Shown in pieces: positions 57,251-63,707 of a DNA stretch of 64,000 nt; position 1 is the first letter of the stretch, and the number at the start of each line of letters is the position of its first letter. Both the position numbers and the translations under genes were made by a program. The notes below the pieces were generated by a model. The model ran no database searches and was not told the DNA's origin. It saw only the letters and a list, made by a program, of their open reading frames with translations. The DNA comes from Sulfurimonas hydrogeniphila (GTDB taxonomy: Bacteria; Campylobacterota; Campylobacteria; Campylobacterales; Sulfurimonadaceae), in contig NZ_CP035534.1 in NCBI RefSeq assembly GCF_009068765.1, forward strand, positions 682,001 through 746,000. Reading direction: 5' to 3'.

Positions 57251-58483
57251 ATGGAACAATTTTTAAAAGAAGCAAAGACTGCGAGTAGAGTATTTAACAG
57301 TTTGAGCGGACGTGATAAAAACAAAATACTACATGAAATGGCAAATGCTTTACGTGCCAATACTATGGATCTTATAGAAGCAAATGCTATTGATATGCTT
57401 GAAGGTGAGAAGAACAAATTAAGTTCTGCATTGATGGACAGACTTTTTTTGGACGAGGAGAGAATAGAGTCCATGGCAAAGGCTGTAGAAGAGATAGCTG
57501 CACTCAAAGAACCGGTAGGACGCGTACTTGACGGGTGGTTGACTGAAGATGGGCTGAAAATAGAAAAAGTGAGTATTCCTATTGGGGTTATCGGTATTAT
57601 TTATGAATCACGCCCTAATGTTACGAGTGATACAGCTGCTCTTTGTTTTAAGAGCTCAAATGTTTGTGTCCTTAAAGGCGGCAAAGAAGCAGAACGCTCA
57701 AACAAAGCAATCGCAAAAGTTTTAAAAGCAGTCTTGGAAAATCATGATTTGCCGACATCTCTTATATCTTTGATTCCGGACAGTTCCCGTGAAGGTGTGG
57801 CCAAACTTATCAAAATGGATAAATATGTAGATCTGATTATTCCTCGCGGAGGAGCAGGGCTTATAAAATTTGTCAGTGAAAATGCAACGGTAAGTGTTGT
57901 CAAACATGACAAAGGGCAGTGTCATACCTATATAGACAAGGACGCAAATATTGAGAGCGCTGTAAAAATTGCATTGAATGCAAAAGTACAACGACCGGGT
58001 GTCTGTAATGCTATGGAGACACTGTTGGTAGACAAAACAATAGCAAAAGAGGTACTTCCTCTTTTAAAAGAGGCGTTTGACAATGCAAATACACAATTAA
58101 AGGGCTGTGTGCAAACTCAGGAAATAATCAGTGTTGCAGAGGCGACAGATGCCGATTATGATACTGAGTATTTGGCAAATATTTTAAATTTGAAGGTTGT
58201 TGAGGGTGTCAACGGGGCGATTGAGCATATAGTACGTTTCGGCTCAGGACACTCGGAAGCTATTGTTACTGAAAATATCACTACAGCAGAAAAATTTTTA
58301 AACAACATTGATGCAGCGGCAGTTTATGTCAATGCCTCTACCCGTTTTACAGACGGAGGCGCTTTTGGCTTTGGTGCAGAAGTGGGAATCAGTACAAACA
58401 AACTCCATGCAAGAGGGCCTATGGGAATAGAAGGGTTGACAACGTATAAATATAAAATTTACGGAAGCGGGCAGATAAGATGA
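57251..58483 (+). CDS. proA: Glutamate-5-semialdehyde dehydrogenase (gamma-glutamyl phosphate reductase)
   Basis: The second step of proline synthesis. About 410 residues from ATG 57251, with GGTGAGG as ribosome-binding site; ATG 57239 would add four residues. Motifs: PIGVIGIIYESRPNVTSD, VLKGGKEAERSNKA, the catalytic cysteine in VQRPGVCNAMETLLVD and ASTRFTDGGAFGFGAEVGIST. It overlaps the Crp/Fnr gene by four bases. Confidence 0.96.
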   Translation: MEQFLKEAKTASRVFNSLSGRDKNKILHEMANALRANTMDLIEANAIDMLEGEKNKLSSALMDRLFLDEERIESMAKAVEEIAALKEPVGRVLDGWLTEDGLKIEKVSIPIGVIGIIYESRPNVTSDTAALCFKSSNVCVLKGGKEAERSNKAIAKVLKAVLENHDLPTSLISLIPDSSREGVAKLIKMDKYVDLIIPRGGAGLIKFVSENATVSVVKHDKGQCHTYIDKDANIESAVKIALNAKVQRPGVCNAMETLLVDKTIAKEVLPLLKEAFDNANTQLKGCVQTQEIISVAEATDADYDTEYLANILNLKVVEGVNGAIEHIVRFGSGHSEAIVTENITTAEKFLNNIDAAAVYVNASTRFTDGGAFGFGAEVGISTNKLHARGPMGIEGLTTYKYKIYGSGQIR

Positions 58484-59127
58484 TGTTGACAATTGACGAA
58501 TTAAAAAGTATTGTTTTTTTTGAAAATCTCAATGAAAAAGAGTTGAAACTGTTACTTTCAATCACAAGAAAGAGAAGTTTTTCTCAAGGTGAAATTCTTT
58601 TTTATGAAAAAGACAAAGCACAGCATCTTACGATGGTGCTTGAAGGTGTTGTGAAAATTTATAAAATAGATCCAAAAAACAATGAAATTATTCTGCATCG
58701 GTTTAGACCAAAAAGCATGGTGGCCGAAATGGCGGTTTTTGAAGGTATTCCTTATCCTGCTTCTGCTGCTTTTGAAAGTGACGGGAGTGTTTTAGAGATA
58801 GACTTTGAAAAATTCAAAGAGTATTTTCTTGGAAATCAAGATATCTCTTTGGCTCTTTTTAAATCACTGACCCAAAAAATCAAGCATCTTGACAATGTGA
58901 TAGCCTTGAATGTTGTTCTGGACTCAACGGCAAGAGTTGCAAAATATATTTGTGAAAATGACGAGGCACTGAAGATGAAAAACAATCAGCTTGCACAATA
59001 TCTGCACATGACTCCCGAGACACTCTCGAGAATACTGAAGAAATTTACAAAGTTAGGGTTTGTAAAAAAAGAGGCAAGTTCATACAAAATTACAAACAAA
59101 GAGGCATTAACCATCCTTTTTGAGTGA
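58480..59127 (+). CDS. Crp/Fnr-family transcriptional regulator
   Basis: A 215-residue regulator: cyclic-nucleotide-binding-type beta roll (about 10-120), a dimerisation helix and a C-terminal winged helix. The recognition helix reads TPETLSRIL; the E-x2-SR pattern is that of Fnr proteins, which bind TTGAT-N4-ATCAA. The four N-terminal Fe-S cysteines of Fnr are absent (a single Cys in the protein), so it is more like the DNR/NnrR nitric-oxide-responsive branch. Matching boxes lie at 59142 and 63067. Its start overlaps the proA stop. Confidence 0.88.
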   Translation: MMLTIDELKSIVFFENLNEKELKLLLSITRKRSFSQGEILFYEKDKAQHLTMVLEGVVKIYKIDPKNNEIILHRFRPKSMVAEMAVFEGIPYPASAAFESDGSVLEIDFEKFKEYFLGNQDISLALFKSLTQKIKHLDNVIALNVVLDSTARVAKYICENDEALKMKNNQLAQYLHMTPETLSRILKKFTKLGFVKKEASSYKITNKEALTILFE

Positions 59128-59141
59128 TTTTTCTCTTTTTA

Positions 59142-59155
59142 TTGATATTGGTCAA
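59142..59155 (+). promoter_or_regulatory. Fnr/DNR-type box 1 (TTGATATTGGTCAA)
   Basis: One mismatch to TTGAT-N4-ATCAA. A -10-like TACAAT at 59178-59183 starts 22 bases after the box, which would place the box centre at about -41.5, the class II activator position. It controls the gene at 59214. Confidence 0.7.
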
Positions 59156-59213: not shown

Positions 59214-59561
59214 ATGTCACATATACCCAATGAAGCTGAAAAAATAGTTGTTGACGGTGCTACCGTTGATTTTTATAAATTGCAAAAAGATGGAGAAAGT
59301 ACCTATTATTTTGATACATCAAAAGAGGGGCCGCCACACCCAATGGTAAATGCAATGGCAGGCTTGGCTCTTATAAAAGGAACTAATGACACTTTGGTGA
59401 TGATAAACCATAAAGCACCGGGAGGACTTTTTGCAAAACTTGAAGATGATGTGAAGTATGATATACAAGAGCTGGATGACGGTTTGGTAAAAGTTGTTTT
59501 TTCATATAACAAAGATGCTGCAAGTGAATCTGATTTGACACAGACAAGTTGCGGCGGTTGA
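59214..59561 (+). CDS. DUF2249-like protein
   Basis: A 115-residue soluble protein from ATG 59214 (AAAAGG at 59201 as ribosome-binding site). The segment PPHPMVNAMAGLALIKGTND ... INHKAPGGLFAKLEDDVKY ... ELDDGLVKVVF follows the DUF2249 pattern of a TusA-like fold. It ends in a CGG tail. Such proteins are common beside nitric oxide and nitrite genes, but their function is unknown. It is the first gene of a three-gene unit behind Fnr-type boxes. Confidence 0.72.
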   Translation: MSHIPNEAEKIVVDGATVDFYKLQKDGESTYYFDTSKEGPPHPMVNAMAGLALIKGTNDTLVMINHKAPGGLFAKLEDDVKYDIQELDDGLVKVVFSYNKDAASESDLTQTSCGG

Positions 59562-59569
59562 GTTGAGTA

Positions 59570-60808
59570 ATGGTAAAAATATCGCAGGACTTTGCACCGC
59601 CGTTTAAACTGATAGCTCCTTTTTTCCTGATAGGGAGCCTGTTTTATTTTTTTGCATCAGTCTATCTTTTTTCATTTGATGCTGCAAATCTCTCTTTTGT
59701 CAACCCGGATATGATGGCATTTGTGCATCTGTTTTTATTGGGTTTTGTCATGATGGTGATTTTTGGTGCAATGGCACAACTGGTTCCGGTTGTTCTTGAA
59801 GTCGGACACTTTGGTGTAGAACTTTTTTATGCAATTTGGCCGTTGCTGCTCACGGGTACACTGCTCATGGTGTTCGGATTTTTGTATTTTCCCGCGCTGC
59901 TGCCTTACGGCGGTGTGACTGTATTGATATCTATGCTGATATTTGTAGGCGAAATTTTTTTAACAATATTTAAAGTCAAAAAATTAACTTTGGTGATGAG
60001 CAGTCTGCTCATTTCAAATACTTTTTTGTTTTTCGGAATAATTTTTGGGCTTTTAATGGCACTCTCTTATGCCGGAACAGTTTCTTTGGATATTGCATCC
60101 TTGCTGAAGGCCCATGTCTATGCGGTTTTAGGCGGTTACATTGCGATAACCGTTATGGGACTCTCTATTGTGCTTGTTCCTATGTTTACGCTCTCACACA
60201 GCTTTTCTTTGAAACCGTTAAAGATTTCTTTGATTATGATGAGTATGGCTGTTGTGAGTGTTGTCATATCTTCATTTTTTAAGATAGATATACTGGCCTA
60301 TACCGGCTATGCTTTGGCAGCTGTTTCGATGATCGTCTATTTCTATCTTATCTATATAATTTACAGTACAAGACCAAGAAAAGAGAACGATATCTATGCG
60401 GTCTCTTTGATGTTCTCTTATATTTCCATGTTGGTTTCCATTGTGATTGTCGTGTTTTATTTTCTGACACAAAAAGAGGAATTTTTACTGGCCTCTATGT
60501 GGCTGTTCTTTTTTGGATTTTTTGCTTTTTTGATTACAGGGCATATTTACAAAATAATTCCGTTTTTGGTCTGGTTTGAAAAGTTTTCACCATTGGTAGG
60601 GAAACAGAAGGTTCCGATGCTGGCAGATATGGTACCGTACAAAAGTTCGCAGGCTCAGTTTGTATTTTGTGCAGTCGGTGTTGTTTTGATTACCATCGCA
60701 ATACTTACAAAAGGTGATGCATTGCTGCATGCCGGTGCTTCTTTTCTTTTTATAGGAACATTGGCATTTATCAGAAATGTATTTTATATGATAAATTTTA
60801 AAGCATAA
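59570..60808 (+). CDS. Twelve-helix membrane protein resembling haem-copper oxidase subunit I
   Basis: A 412-residue, very hydrophobic protein with about 12 membrane helices. AFVHLFLLGFVMMVIFGAMAQ (His near residue 53), LKAHVYAVLGGYIAI and GHIYKIIPFLVWFEKF carry conserved-looking histidines inside helices, as in the NorB/CcoN superfamily and its uncharacterised relatives. The full set of six metal-ligand histidines is not visible, so it is probably not an oxidase. A role in nitric oxide handling is suggested by the neighbours only. Confidence 0.6.
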   Translation: MVKISQDFAPPFKLIAPFFLIGSLFYFFASVYLFSFDAANLSFVNPDMMAFVHLFLLGFVMMVIFGAMAQLVPVVLEVGHFGVELFYAIWPLLLTGTLLMVFGFLYFPALLPYGGVTVLISMLIFVGEIFLTIFKVKKLTLVMSSLLISNTFLFFGIIFGLLMALSYAGTVSLDIASLLKAHVYAVLGGYIAITVMGLSIVLVPMFTLSHSFSLKPLKISLIMMSMAVVSVVISSFFKIDILAYTGYALAAVSMIVYFYLIYIIYSTRPRKENDIYAVSLMFSYISMLVSIVIVVFYFLTQKEEFLLASMWLFFFGFFAFLITGHIYKIIPFLVWFEKFSPLVGKQKVPMLADMVPYKSSQAQFVFCAVGVVLITIAILTKGDALLHAGASFLFIGTLAFIRNVFYMINFKA

Positions 60809-60830
60809 AATTTTAGAAGAGGAGAATTAC

Positions 60831-61133
60831 ATGTATACAAAAGATGAATTATTTCAGGCAATTTCAACGGTTATAGATCCGGAAGTAGGTTTTAATCTTG
60901 TGGAAATGGGTCTTATCTATGATGCCAGTTGTGATGAAGAGGGGAATGCTAAAGTAGTCATGACGCTTTCAACAAAGGCCTGTCCTATGCATCAGATGAT
61001 TTTGCAATGGGTAAAAGAAGCAGTAGAAAAACTGCCAAATGTAAAAAGTGCTGATGTAGAAGTTGTCTGGGAACCGCAGTGGAATATTTCCATGGCTGAT
61101 GAAAATGTCAAAAAAGCACTGGGTGCTGCCTGA
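60831..61133 (+). CDS. DUF59/MIP18-family metal-sulfur cluster protein
   Basis: A 100-residue SufT/PaaD-type protein: IDPEVGFNLVEMGLIYD is the family start and the conserved cysteine is in TKACPMHQMI. Family members help to mature Fe-S proteins. GAGGAG precedes the ATG. It ends the DUF2249-like/membrane-protein unit and suggests that the unit handles a metallocentre. Confidence 0.9.
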   Translation: MYTKDELFQAISTVIDPEVGFNLVEMGLIYDASCDEEGNAKVVMTLSTKACPMHQMILQWVKEAVEKLPNVKSADVEVVWEPQWNISMADENVKKALGAA

Positions 61134-61137
61134 TTGT

Positions 61138-61165
61138 ATGAGCCTACTCTTGAGGCTCATGTTTT
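61138..61165 (+). terminator. Terminator after the DUF59 gene
   Basis: ATGAGCC / GGCTCAT with a 9-base loop, followed by GTTTT. It overlaps the 3' end of the convergent gene at 61144. Confidence 0.7.
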
Positions 61166-61437
61166 AAATAACTGTTTTTTATCAGTATCATTTCATATAC
61201 CGAAACTTTTGGCATCGCTTCGTCTATAAGTCGGTCTGTATCTTTATATTTACCCTGCATTCTTTTTATATCATCATAGGCTTTCGGCTTGACTTCACTT
61301 GTTGCAACAGAAATAACAGCAGCCCATATAAGAATAATGGCAATCCATACTATTTTTTTAGCACCGGCATACACGCCTAAAAAATGAAAGATAATTGTCA
61401 GAACAATTCCAATACTCAACAAAAATGTCAAACTCAT
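61144..61437 (-). CDS. Small two-helix membrane protein, nir-linked unknown 3
   Basis: A 97-residue protein with two membrane helices (about 2-22 and 27-46) and a polar tail containing RMQGKYKDTDRLIDEAMP. Its ATG overlaps the stop of the preceding gene (ATGA), with AAGGA upstream. It shares an RMQG-x-acidic tail motif with the gene at 61585, hinting at common origin. I do not recognise the family. It belongs to an overlapping set behind the siroheme decarboxylase gene. Confidence 0.65.
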   Translation of the reverse strand: MSLTFLLSIGIVLTIIFHFLGVYAGAKKIVWIAIILIWAAVISVATSEVKPKAYDDIKRMQGKYKDTDRLIDEAMPKVSVYEMILIKNSYLKHEPQE

Positions 61438-61595
61438 AAATGTATCCTTTCTCCTTCTGGGGTAATTGTAATATTTGCATCTTTAAACATCTGATCTCCA
61501 AAATCTTTGACACCCAGGGTTCCCAGCAGCATTAAAATGACAACTAAAAACAAAAAAATGACAGCCATACCATATCTTTTGAATCTACTTATCAT
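61434..61595 (-). CDS. 53-residue membrane protein, nir-linked unknown 2
   Basis: Starts at ATG 61595, inside the last codons of the upstream gene, and ends overlapping the next. It has one membrane helix (about 8-30, MAVIFLFLVVILMLLGTLG) and a short periplasmic or cytoplasmic tail (FGDQMFKDANITI). The tight overlap on both sides supports expression. The function is unknown. Confidence 0.6.
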   Translation of the reverse strand: MISRFKRYGMAVIFLFLVVILMLLGTLGVKDFGDQMFKDANITITPEGERIHL

Positions 61596-61988
61596 TTTCA
61601 GTCTCATCTTTTGGGGCAATAGGTGAATAGTCTACGCATCTTGCCGTATGAAAATCTCTGATAAAATCAGGATTTTTGAAGTAATCACCATCAAGTCTCC
61701 ATCCAAGCTTTTTTGAAATCAAAACAGATTGTGAAATGGTTCTTCTCATTTTGTTTTCACAGATAACAGTCTTGCCTTCATTAAAGATTTCTTTGACACC
61801 CTGCATTCTTTTGGTAGTTACAAAATAATGAATACCTATCATAATGGCAAATATGGCAAATATACCAGACATTCCTTTTTTAAAGGCACCTTTTGGCATA
61901 AAATCCCTTGTTGTGACAAAGGCGGTAATGGCCAAAAAAATATTCCTATTACAATATATGCAATTTCCAGCTCAAAAAATCTTTCCAT
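61585..61988 (-). CDS. Membrane protein, nir-linked unknown 1; frame interrupted in a T7 run
   Basis: ATG 61988 follows a strong AAAGGAGAA site and encodes MERFFELEIAYIVIGIFF, the start of a membrane helix, but then leaves frame at seven T residues (61934-61940) and soon stops. The other frame, open from TTG 61935, continues the helix and gives 116 residues: a second helix (MSGIFAIFAIMIGIHYF) and a polar domain with two cysteines (VICEN, ARCVDYSP). One additional T would join them into about 134 residues. Annotation as TTG 61935-61585 is the conservative alternative. Confidence 0.6.
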
Positions 61989-62000
61989 TATATTTCTCCT

Positions 62001-63005
62001 TTATGCAACTGTAGCATGTTTTTTTTCCCATTCGGCAAATTTGGGTGTGAAATACTCAATTCTTACCTTTTTAAACTCTTTTGATGAGTACAGAGGCATG
62101 TAGTCTTTTGATTCTATCTCCTGTGCCATCTCCGCAATCATGGCATTTGTCTCTTGGGTCGTTTTTCCGTGGACCATTGTAAAGAGATTATAGGGCCAGT
62201 TTTTGTATTTTGGACGCAGGTAGCAGTGACTTACGGCAGAAAAAGCCGCTGCCTTTGCACCTATGGCATCGCCGAGTGTTTCATCAATATCCCAGACAAC
62301 CATGGCATTTGCATTAAAACCTGCTTTTCTGTGGTTTAAAATGGAAGCAAACCGTCTCATGACACCGGCTTTCTGCAACTCCTGCAGGGTATTGAAAAAG
62401 GTTTCGTAGTCTATATCAAGATCATTGATGATATCAGCAAACGGTTCGCTGACAAAGTCAATGTCATACTGTACTCTCTGAATAATTTTATGGTGTAAAG
62501 GTGTCAGTTCTATATCTTTATGGACAACCTTTTTTACCTCTTCTTTTTTTTCGTCTTTTCCTGTCGTATTGAGTTTGACATTGATCTTAAAAAGCTTCAG
62601 GGTAGGCAGAACAATATAATCATCTGCCTCTGCAAGGCTGGCAAGCGTTTGTATTGTTTTTTCTAAACCCAAAACAGAATCAGGTGCAACTGCCATGGTA
62701 AACCAGATGTTAAAATCATGGTTTCTTTCGTAGTTATGCGAAACACCGGGATGGGCATTGATAATCTTTACGGCACTGTTGATTTTTTCTTCGGGAATTT
62801 TAAACGCAACCAGAGATGATTTGTACCCCAGGCGTTTTGTGTCAAATATGGCGGAAGTCTGACGTATGATATTTGCTTTTTTTTCTGCTTGCAATATCTC
62901 TAAAACTTCATCTTCTCGCATACCCAACTCATCAGCAATCACCTCAAAAGGTTTTTGTACCAACGGAAACTTTTTCTGTATTCTTGAAAGTATCTCTTGT
63001 TTCAT
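62001..63005 (-). CDS. Fused two-domain siroheme decarboxylase (NirDL/AhbAB-like)
   Basis: Decarboxylates siroheme to didecarboxysiroheme in heme d1 (or alternative heme) synthesis. The 334 residues are two AsnC/Lrp-type units in tandem: about 1-150 (VSHNYERNHDFNIWF) and 170-330 (VSHCYLRPKYKNWPYNLFTMVHG). Both carry the SHxYxR signature with the active-site histidine; many organisms encode the two units as separate proteins. It heads a minus-strand operon with the three small membrane genes and diverges from the siroheme synthesis gene across an Fnr-type box. Confidence 0.88.
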   Translation of the reverse strand: MKQEILSRIQKKFPLVQKPFEVIADELGMREDEVLEILQAEKKANIIRQTSAIFDTKRLGYKSSLVAFKIPEEKINSAVKIINAHPGVSHNYERNHDFNIWFTMAVAPDSVLGLEKTIQTLASLAEADDYIVLPTLKLFKINVKLNTTGKDEKKEEVKKVVHKDIELTPLHHKIIQRVQYDIDFVSEPFADIINDLDIDYETFFNTLQELQKAGVMRRFASILNHRKAGFNANAMVVWDIDETLGDAIGAKAAAFSAVSHCYLRPKYKNWPYNLFTMVHGKTTQETNAMIAEMAQEIESKDYMPLYSSKEFKKVRIEYFTPKFAEWEKKHATVA

Positions 63006-63066: not shown

Positions 63067-63080
63067 TTGATATTTGTCAA
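63067..63080. promoter_or_regulatory. Fnr/DNR-type box between divergent heme d1 genes (TTGATATTTGTCAA)
   Basis: Differs from box 1 at 59142 by one base. It lies about 41.5 bases from the predicted start of both divergent transcripts, so a single bound dimer could activate both. Confidence 0.72.
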
Positions 63081-63140: not shown

Positions 63141-63707
63141 ATGGCTTATTTTCCGGCATTTTTAAAATTAGACGGTAAAAAAATTCTTATAGTAGGTGGC
63201 GGAAATGTTGCGTATGAAAAGTTGGAACATCTTCTTGATTTTACAAAAGACATATATATCATTGCAAATGAATTTTCACAAGAGATGCTGCAACGTATAC
63301 AGGAAGAAAATCTTGTGTATGAAAAGCGTAAGTACAGAAAAGGTGATATACGGGAGTTTGCTGTTGTAGTGGTTGCTGTGGACAGTATTGCACTGCAGGC
63401 GGAGATATTTGAGGAGTCCAAGCAGTACAATTGTTTGTGTAATGCTGTGGACTCAGTGGCCTATTGTGATTTTATTTTTCCTTCGTATGTAAAAAAAGAG
63501 GATCTGATTATTGCAATATCAACTTCAGGTGCTTCTCCTGCAATGGCAAAACATTTAAGAAAGTATCTGCAAAAGATGATTCCAGGTGGAATTTCGAAGT
63601 TTTTGCAGGAGATGAAAAAACTGCGTAAAAGTTTGCCCAAAGGAAAAGAGAGAATGAAAATGCTTGATGAAAAAGCAAAAAAATATATAGAAAATTGGAG
63701 TCAGTAA
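63141..63707 (+). CDS. Precorrin-2 dehydrogenase/sirohydrochlorin ferrochelatase (Met8/CysG-N type)
   Basis: A 188-residue enzyme that oxidises precorrin-2 and inserts iron to give siroheme, the precursor used by the divergent decarboxylase. It has the NAD-binding KILIVGGGNVAYEKLEHLL, the catalytic aspartate region (NAVDSVAYCDFIFPS) and SISTSGASPAMAKHLRKYL. There is no methyltransferase domain. Its stop overlaps the ATG of the next gene. Confidence 0.92.
   Translation: MAYFPAFLKLDGKKILIVGGGNVAYEKLEHLLDFTKDIYIIANEFSQEMLQRIQEENLVYEKRKYRKGDIREFAVVVVAVDSIALQAEIFEESKQYNCLCNAVDSVAYCDFIFPSYVKKEDLIIAISTSGASPAMAKHLRKYLQKMIPGGISKFLQEMKKLRKSLPKGKERMKMLDEKAKKYIENWSQ

Follow-up and report, generated by a model that had tools for sequence, protein, structure and literature searches.

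Gene organization of the locus

The window analysed here is a 64,000-nucleotide stretch of the Sulfurimonas hydrogeniphila genome (2.34 Mb), corresponding to positions 682001-746000 of contig C1. It carries three consecutive open reading frames on the forward strand (59208/59214-59561, 59570-60808 and 60831-61133) separated by intergenic gaps of 8 and 22 bases. These genes encode a DUF2249-like protein, a 12-helix membrane protein and a DUF59 protein and, from their sequence arrangement, are a tight operon. Features of the locus are as follows (window coordinates):

58480..59127, forward strand: CRP/FNR-family regulator with cNMP-binding and Crp-type HTH domains (Pfam PF00027 and PF13545)
59142..59155, forward strand: FNR-type box TTGATATTGGTCAA, approximately 60-70 bases before the first gene
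59214..59561, forward strand: soluble DUF2249-like protein of putative TusA-like fold, its near-terminal Cys almost invariant (alignment, PF10006 in relatives, structure model)
59570..60808, forward strand: 12-helix membrane protein with heme-copper oxidase fold, three four-helix repeats and probably one bis-His heme (profiles and model)
59726..59728, forward strand: His53 codon (helix 2; putative ligand of the heme; 98/98)
60113..60115, forward strand: His182 codon (helix 6; putative ligand of the heme; 98/98)
60831..61133, forward strand: DUF59/MIP18-type iron-sulfur assembly protein with invariant Cys51 (PF01883 E-value: 3.5e-16; alignment of 30)
62001..63005, reverse strand: fused siroheme decarboxylase AhbA-AhbB/NirDL (NF040708 and NF040707, above cut-off)
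63067..63080, forward strand: further FNR-type box TTGATATTTGTCAA, within the divergent promoter of nirDL and cysG
63141..63707, forward strand: CysG N-terminal domain protein of the precorrin-2 dehydrogenase type (TIGR01470, above cut-off)

Genes for the siroheme decarboxylase, CysG, a NirE-type methyltransferase, NirF-like and NirJ-like proteins, NirS, NorB and NorC all lie within approximately 18 kb downstream of the unit. The same nir-nor region encodes a MauG/MbnH-like di-heme protein and a multiheme cytochrome (L155:5117-8118). Three small ORFs between the unit and nirDL (61144-61935, reverse strand) are at least partly of membrane type and keep their order in many relatives (clusters c12, c27 and c13); they have no convincing family match in Pfam or NCBIfam. 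In addition to cNOR and CcoN, the genome has another COX1 protein of NOR/oxidase-like type, encoded with a 204-aa partner approximately 17 kb before the window (L154:821-3120; C1:665115).

Soluble proteins of the unit

The first protein had been read from the sequence as DUF2249-like with a TusA-type fold. In the window its identity as a member of the DUF2249 family (PF10006; presumably the same family as COG4309) is weak, with a score below the Pfam cut-off (12.6 bits against 29.5; E-value: 0.13). Among 59 aligned relatives, 27 match PF10006 at an E-value of 0.1 or below, the best at 2e-8. The structure model (pLDDT 90.4) has as its top rows in VIA the TusA-like domain of YeeD/TsuB (Z 7.9) and a SirA-like protein (Z 7.6), so that agreement with a TusA-like fold is moderate and within the range of chance matches; Foldseek with the same model returned nothing at an E-value of 0.001 or below. 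A weak match to 'rusticyanin' was regarded as spurious (25.8 bits against a cut-off of 146.7). TusA sulfur carriers have a Cys in a CPxP motif. This cysteine is absent from all 59 aligned DUF2249-like proteins, which have Pro (49), His (9) or Ala (1) at the corresponding place (residue 40). A Cys is found two residues before residue 40 in 33 of the 59, and C113, near the C-terminus, is conserved in 56.

The third protein is a DUF59 protein, as previously proposed, since it scores above the Pfam cut-off for PF01883 (DUF59/MIP18; 59.7 bits against 23.5, E-value: 3.5e-16). It falls below the NCBIfam cut-off for the SUF-associated DUF59 model TIGR02945 (84.9 bits against 143.4). Asp16-Pro17-Glu18 and Cys51 are present in all 30 aligned sequences (29 of 31 thinned rows plus the window protein). 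As two more DUF59 domains are encoded elsewhere in the genome, the unit's copy is not the sole one.

Fold and repeats of the membrane protein

The membrane protein (59570-60808) has no match in Pfam or NCBIfam. An AlphaFold2 model was built on 90 relatives (for this alignment L001, L002 and L083-L111 were omitted as likely repeats and the remainder thinned to 110, of which 89 were used together with the window protein). In this model (pLDDT 94.9, pTM 0.93) 12 membrane helices are predicted, the number given by the sequence-only reading. That reading had also proposed a structural comparison with NorB and CcoN, which when run indicated a common fold: the model matches CcoN with a VIA Z-score of 34.8 and NorB with Z-scores of 33.8 and 31.9 (best superposition: 385 residues aligned, rmsd 3.0), and the first 49 rows returned by Foldseek are all heme-copper oxidases and NO reductases (E-value: 2.6e-6). 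Sequence identity is 12-14% for the matches at Z 34.8 and 33.8, and 10-15% to CcoN and NorB in the alignments. Fifteen of the 90 members match the COX1 family at an E-value of 0.01 or below, and the profile of the family matches CcoN in a PDB set (E-value: 4e-9), with helices 1-3 placed onto CcoN helices 9-11. The protein is made up of three internal four-helix repeats (hhalign between repeats: 96%, 93% and 97%). With its 12-helix core over the whole chain and three homologous units, it has the fold of the heme-copper oxidase superfamily.

The loops predicted to be cytoplasmic contain 11 Lys/Arg residues and the periplasmic loops three, a distribution that places the N-terminus inside. The cytoplasmic loops are also the more conserved (mean entropy 1.32 against 2.64), and binding of the soluble partners at the inside face would fit this stronger conservation. 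The membrane protein has no conserved Cys.

Conserved histidines and the predicted heme

Several intramembrane histidines had been claimed for this protein. Three of the five His residues considered are in helices (H53, H182 and H325, in helices 2, 6 and 10, respectively), and the other two (H80 and H210) are in loops on the predicted cytoplasmic side. When conservation was checked as suggested for H53 and the other helix histidines, H53 and H182 were each found in 107/107 rows of the first alignment, from which 9 of 115 matches were left out as duplicates or fragments, and in 98/98 rows of a wider alignment including seven sequences from Thermus, rhizobia and a haloarchaeon. H80, H210 and H325 are lineage-specific and are not kept across the wider set of 98. 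A cytoplasmic 2-His-1-carboxylate site formed by H80, H210 and E337, at equivalent places of the three repeats, was considered and rejected because H80, H210 and H325 are not kept as a set outside the Campylobacterota group. His residues at positions 80 and 337 are nearly exclusive of each other: among 90 proteins, 53 have H80 and 32 have H337, with one having both and six neither. This pattern largely follows clades, and both residues occur together in 6 rows of the less diverse 107-row alignment.

H53 in repeat 1 aligns with H182 in repeat 2, and repeat 3 has mostly Trp or Phe, and no His, at the same place. Aligned to CcoN from the PDB set, H53 coincides with the latter of the two His residues in the GHVH motif and H182 with the His of CcoN helix 2, both low-spin heme ligands. 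The binuclear-site histidines of oxidases and NO reductases are absent: H53 and H182 are the only invariant His residues, there is no set of six, and helix 7 of the window protein has no histidine. As the two invariant histidines are at low-spin heme positions and those of the binuclear site are lacking, the protein is probably a one-heme membrane cytochrome with H53 and H182 as predicted ligands, and probably neither an oxidase nor an NO reductase. A catalytic metallo-membrane system, as first envisaged, does not agree with the absence of the oxidase/NO-reductase metal-site histidines or with the lineage-specific occurrence of H80, H210 and H325.

A more specific reading, which we consider doubtful, concerns the position of the heme in this family of oxidase relatives, which is common to bacteria and archaea. 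The only heme would occupy the pore between units 1 and 2, at helices 2 and 6, and be displaced by one third of a turn relative to the low-spin site found in oxidases and NnrS, through a move of the site or through circular permutation of the units. With its DUF59 partner and the putatively TusA-fold one, the protein would form a membrane station in which a heme on the periplasmic side is coupled to the upkeep of metal-sulfur cofactors in the cytoplasm during denitrification. The best placement of helices 1-3 on CcoN helices 9-11 and of unit 2 on NnrS unit 1 speaks for this shift. The hhalign results are mixed, as unit 2 prefers CcoN unit 3 over unit 1 and all probabilities against CcoN and NorB are low, and permutation is therefore not proved.

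Distribution of the unit

Relatives of the membrane protein are encoded by 124 of 298 Campylobacterota genomes (E-value of 1e-10 or below). By score, 107 of these have the window type, 15 have a paralogue only and two have a third type (G133 and G217); the latter 17 were held separate from the 107. Sufficient flanking sequence is available for 141 loci, which are not independent, a few being repeats of one genome. In 98 of them a DUF2249-like gene directly precedes and a DUF59 gene directly follows the membrane protein gene, so that the three-gene unit, correctly placed at 59214-61133 by the sequence-only reading, has a conserved order. Eleven loci have the DUF2249-like gene only, five the DUF59 gene only and 27 neither, most of the 27 being the paralogue. 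At paralogue loci a hemerythrin gene precedes the membrane protein gene, often with another DUF2249-type gene between the two. S. hydrogeniphila itself has such a paralogous unit (L130:9045-10952, C1 approximately 362000), encoding a hemerythrin, a DUF2249-type protein and a membrane protein of 28% identity that keeps H53 and H182; no FNR box was found at this locus, and the paralogue shows no link in occurrence to denitrification genes. The unit is also carried, with 57% identity to the window protein, by a contig (L050) whose title, apparently a mislabel, names an isolate assembly of Helicobacter pylori.

Ten of 96 matching plasmid records were examined. On a plasmid of Aliarcobacter, a short unnamed gene precedes those for the membrane protein and DUF59. 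In plasmids from Thermus, Sinorhizobium, Shinella, Mesorhizobium, Aminobacter and Haloprofundus, all of other phyla, DUF2249 genes adjoin the membrane protein gene. A DUF59 annotation lies next to this gene in six of the eight annotated non-Campylobacterota regions (the two Thermus ones nearly alike), the exceptions being M. loti and Haloprofundus; a ninth region (Sinorhizobium BG8) is without annotation. Six of the eight also hold nor, nirK, nosZ/nosR or nnrS, the two Thermus regions being without them. Rhizobial copies lie with a nos cluster in Aminobacter and with nor-nirK in Shinella and S. meliloti, and the haloarchaeal copy (Haloprofundus) is near nirK. One Thermus plasmid locus encodes a DrpA-sized DUF2249 protein, a DrpB-type protein, a 144-aa COX1-like protein, a protoglobin, the membrane protein and DUF59. 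The 144-aa protein, which matches only the last third of COX1, and the protoglobin are encoded between the DrpB-type gene and the membrane protein gene (L178:7662-8935).

Regulation and link to denitrification

One exact copy of TTGA-N6-TCAA precedes the unit at 59142. The same box is found in 93 of 110 regions upstream of the first gene, many of them from related genomes, against a mean of 1.2 and a maximum of 4 in 200 Markov-resampled sets, which bears out the earlier suggestion of Fnr-type control. In S. hydrogeniphila, such sites occur upstream of the unit, in the promoter region from which nirDL and cysG diverge and ahead of the short gene leading norCB. Co-expression of the unit with the genes of denitrification, controlled by an FNR-type regulator, is a component of the tentative model given below; the box does not distinguish FNR from DNR or another regulator of this type.

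Co-occurrence was counted in the 298 Campylobacterota genomes, ignoring relatedness, as genomes with both, with the unit only, with the other gene only and with neither. The counts are 79/28/10/181 for NosZ (two split genes included), 70/37/15/176 for c/qNOR and 41/66/5/186 for NirS. The NOR count covers cNOR and qNOR at an E-value of 1e-20 or below and so misses other NORs, such as the third COX1-family locus of S. hydrogeniphila and a second COX1 match in G146. NrfA shows a negative link (31/76/109/82), and genomes with the paralogue only show no link to NosZ (3/12/86/197). Within the genus, NosZ, NirS and NOR all give 12/0/1/5 (Fisher p 0.0007). The link to nitrogen-oxide respiration that had been suspected is therefore seen across the 298 genomes as well as in the adjoining nir-nor region, and by the NosZ counts the unit is not equally frequent in genomes without denitrification. 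Matches to NosZ, c/qNOR and NirS are all lacking in 22 of the 107 unit genomes. Fifteen of these 22 have NrfA and 20 have NapA above cut-off (the NapA share is known for these 22 only), and nitrate or nitrite handling is therefore likely, on these sequence matches, in nearly all. The unit is tied to nitrogen-oxide respiration and not to one enzyme.

Comparison with known systems

In YeeE-YeeD (TsuA-TsuB), as may also be the case in the unit, a membrane protein works with a TusA-fold partner; among the fold matches of the first protein, the YeeD domain ranks highest (Z 7.9). YeeE-YeeD functions in thiosulfate uptake, and its membrane protein is of another kind. CcoN and NorB share the fold of the unit's membrane protein over nearly its full length but differ in having the binuclear-site histidines, with identity of 10-15%. 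NnrS (PF05940) is likewise a 12-helix oxidase-like protein of NO/denitrification regulons, and two NnrS genes are present in the S. hydrogeniphila genome (C1:1341544 and C1:2106409). In an alignment of 18 of 20 NnrS loci the invariant histidines are in units 1 and 3 (H69 and H320, plus H342), whereas those of the unit's membrane protein are in units 1 and 2. None of the 90 members matches PF05940 at an E-value of 0.01 or below, and the match to the NnrS profile is partial and shifted by one unit.

Pei et al. 2014 reportedly defined heme-copper oxidase homology (HCOH) classes that include proteins of three four-helix units. The unit's membrane protein resembles these in its 12 helices, three homologous units, two conserved His, single predicted heme and denitrification/NO context. 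Pei et al. 2014 are cited in PMC11218638 for the linkage of DUF2249 genes with the heme-copper superfamily and for NnrS-like oxidase homologues, and PMC4602095 likewise cites them for HCOH proteins. DUF2249 genes are induced in haloarchaeal denitrification (PMC11218638), and family COG4309 and nnrS are linked with nor genes (Rodionov 2005; PMC1274295). In Thermus thermophilus, the DUF2249 proteins DrpA (DUF2249) and DrpB (DUF1858-DUF2249-DUF2249) are, like the unit, tied to nitrate respiration, with phenotypes reported for their mutants (PMC6282519). The drpAB double mutants keep NarG protein but have approximately a tenth of the nitrate reductase activity, and the nar and dnr promoters are derepressed in drp mutants (PMC6282519). 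The two proteins were proposed to be nitrate sensors, with DrpA reported as periplasmic, and the available portions of PMC6282519 do not name the membrane protein. Thermus plasmids encode proteins with Drp-type domain composition next to DUF59 and a homologue of the unit's membrane protein.

The unit had been thought not to be described. A three-gene unit with DUF59 was indeed not found in the open-licence literature (subscription papers not covered), but NnrS-like oxidase homologues, the DUF2249/heme-copper link (PMC11218638) and the Drp phenotypes (PMC6282519) are in print. Judged by sequence, the unit would centre on an oxidase homologue that resembles NnrS but differs in its pair of putative heme histidines and has two defined partners: a known kind of protein in a new form.

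Proposed model

By sequence and prediction, the unit has the oxidase fold, the repeats, two invariant histidines, a lost set of binuclear-site histidines, a conserved cytoplasmic face, the operon structure, the box and the co-occurrence; from these we infer a function in either iron-cofactor upkeep under NO or sensing of NO or nitrate. In general terms, the set would most likely help cells to withstand the NO that they produce. The best explanation, which we put forward tentatively as a possibility short of a probability, is that a non-catalytic membrane cytochrome and its two soluble partners are co-produced with the enzymes of denitrification, controlled by an FNR-type regulator, and serve the upkeep of iron and iron-sulfur cofactors under NO. 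The model is as follows. One heme b, with H53 and H182 as ligands, would lie towards the periplasmic side. The DUF2249-like protein, of putative TusA fold, and the DUF59 protein may dock on the cytoplasmic loops at residues 77-82, 208-214, 267-274 and 343-356, as the conservation of the cytoplasmic loops suggests. The heme of the assembly would pass electrons or sense NO, and iron and iron-sulfur cofactors of nitrogen-oxide respiration would be built or repaired while NO is present.

It is highly improbable that the membrane protein itself removes NO by reduction or oxidation, as a small NO reductase. Despite the fold in common with NorB (Z 33.8 and 31.9) and the denitrification context, its only two invariant histidines are at low-spin heme positions, no His is found in helix 7 of the window protein or at the ligand position of repeat 3, and real NORs are also present in 70 of the 107 unit genomes. 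A maturation factor for a single denitrification enzyme (NirS, NOR or NosZ) would account for the strong co-occurrence with each of these and for the nos cluster in Aminobacter and nor-nirK in Shinella and S. meliloti. Such a role is quite unlikely, as no one client fits: of the 107 unit genomes 28 are without NosZ, 37 without c/qNOR and 66 without NirS, and the rhizobial and haloarchaeal copies adjoin the copper enzyme NirK. CuZ of NosZ needs sulfide. Sulfur supply specific to NosZ was considered and rejected, given the 28/107 unit genomes without NosZ and the rhizobial copies near nirK/nor.

Alternatively, the unit could be a sensor in which NO, or a redox state governed by nitrate, is detected by the membrane protein's heme, with the DUF2249-type protein signalling to CRP/FNR-family regulators, by analogy with the proposal for DrpA/DrpB. 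This is unlikely, though less so than the roles above. It still stands because drp mutants alter gene expression too, with derepressed nar and dnr promoters (PMC6282519), and it agrees with the Thermus locus that joins DrpA-sized DUF2249 and DrpB-type genes, the COX1-like 144-aa protein, protoglobin, the membrane protein and DUF59. A CRP/FNR gene lies directly upstream of the unit in the window, yet such a gene is no constant neighbour (cluster c3: 44 loci). A DUF59 maturation factor would be an odd component for a sensor, and the FNR box marks the unit as a target and not obviously as an input.

For cofactor upkeep under NO, the DUF59 partner, the sister unit's hemerythrin and the phenotype of Thermus drpAB mutants (PMC6282519) point in the same direction; the paralogous unit, in which a member of the same membrane family is combined with hemerythrin and a DUF2249 protein, counts for repair or maturation. 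The lack of a conserved Cys in the membrane protein and the 22/107 unit genomes without NosZ, c/qNOR and NirS count against it, and the periplasmic location reported for DrpA (PMC6282519) is hard to reconcile with docking on the cytoplasmic side, provided that both families behave in the same way. In denitrifiers, iron-sulfur enzymes that are sensitive to NO lie close to where it is produced, and little is known of the means of keeping these enzymes working. The operon, which is conserved, has relatives in several phyla and is probably under FNR-type control, encodes a probable heme membrane protein and a dedicated Fe-S-type partner, and may offer a handle on enzyme upkeep under NO and on the unexplained DUF2249/Drp proteins.
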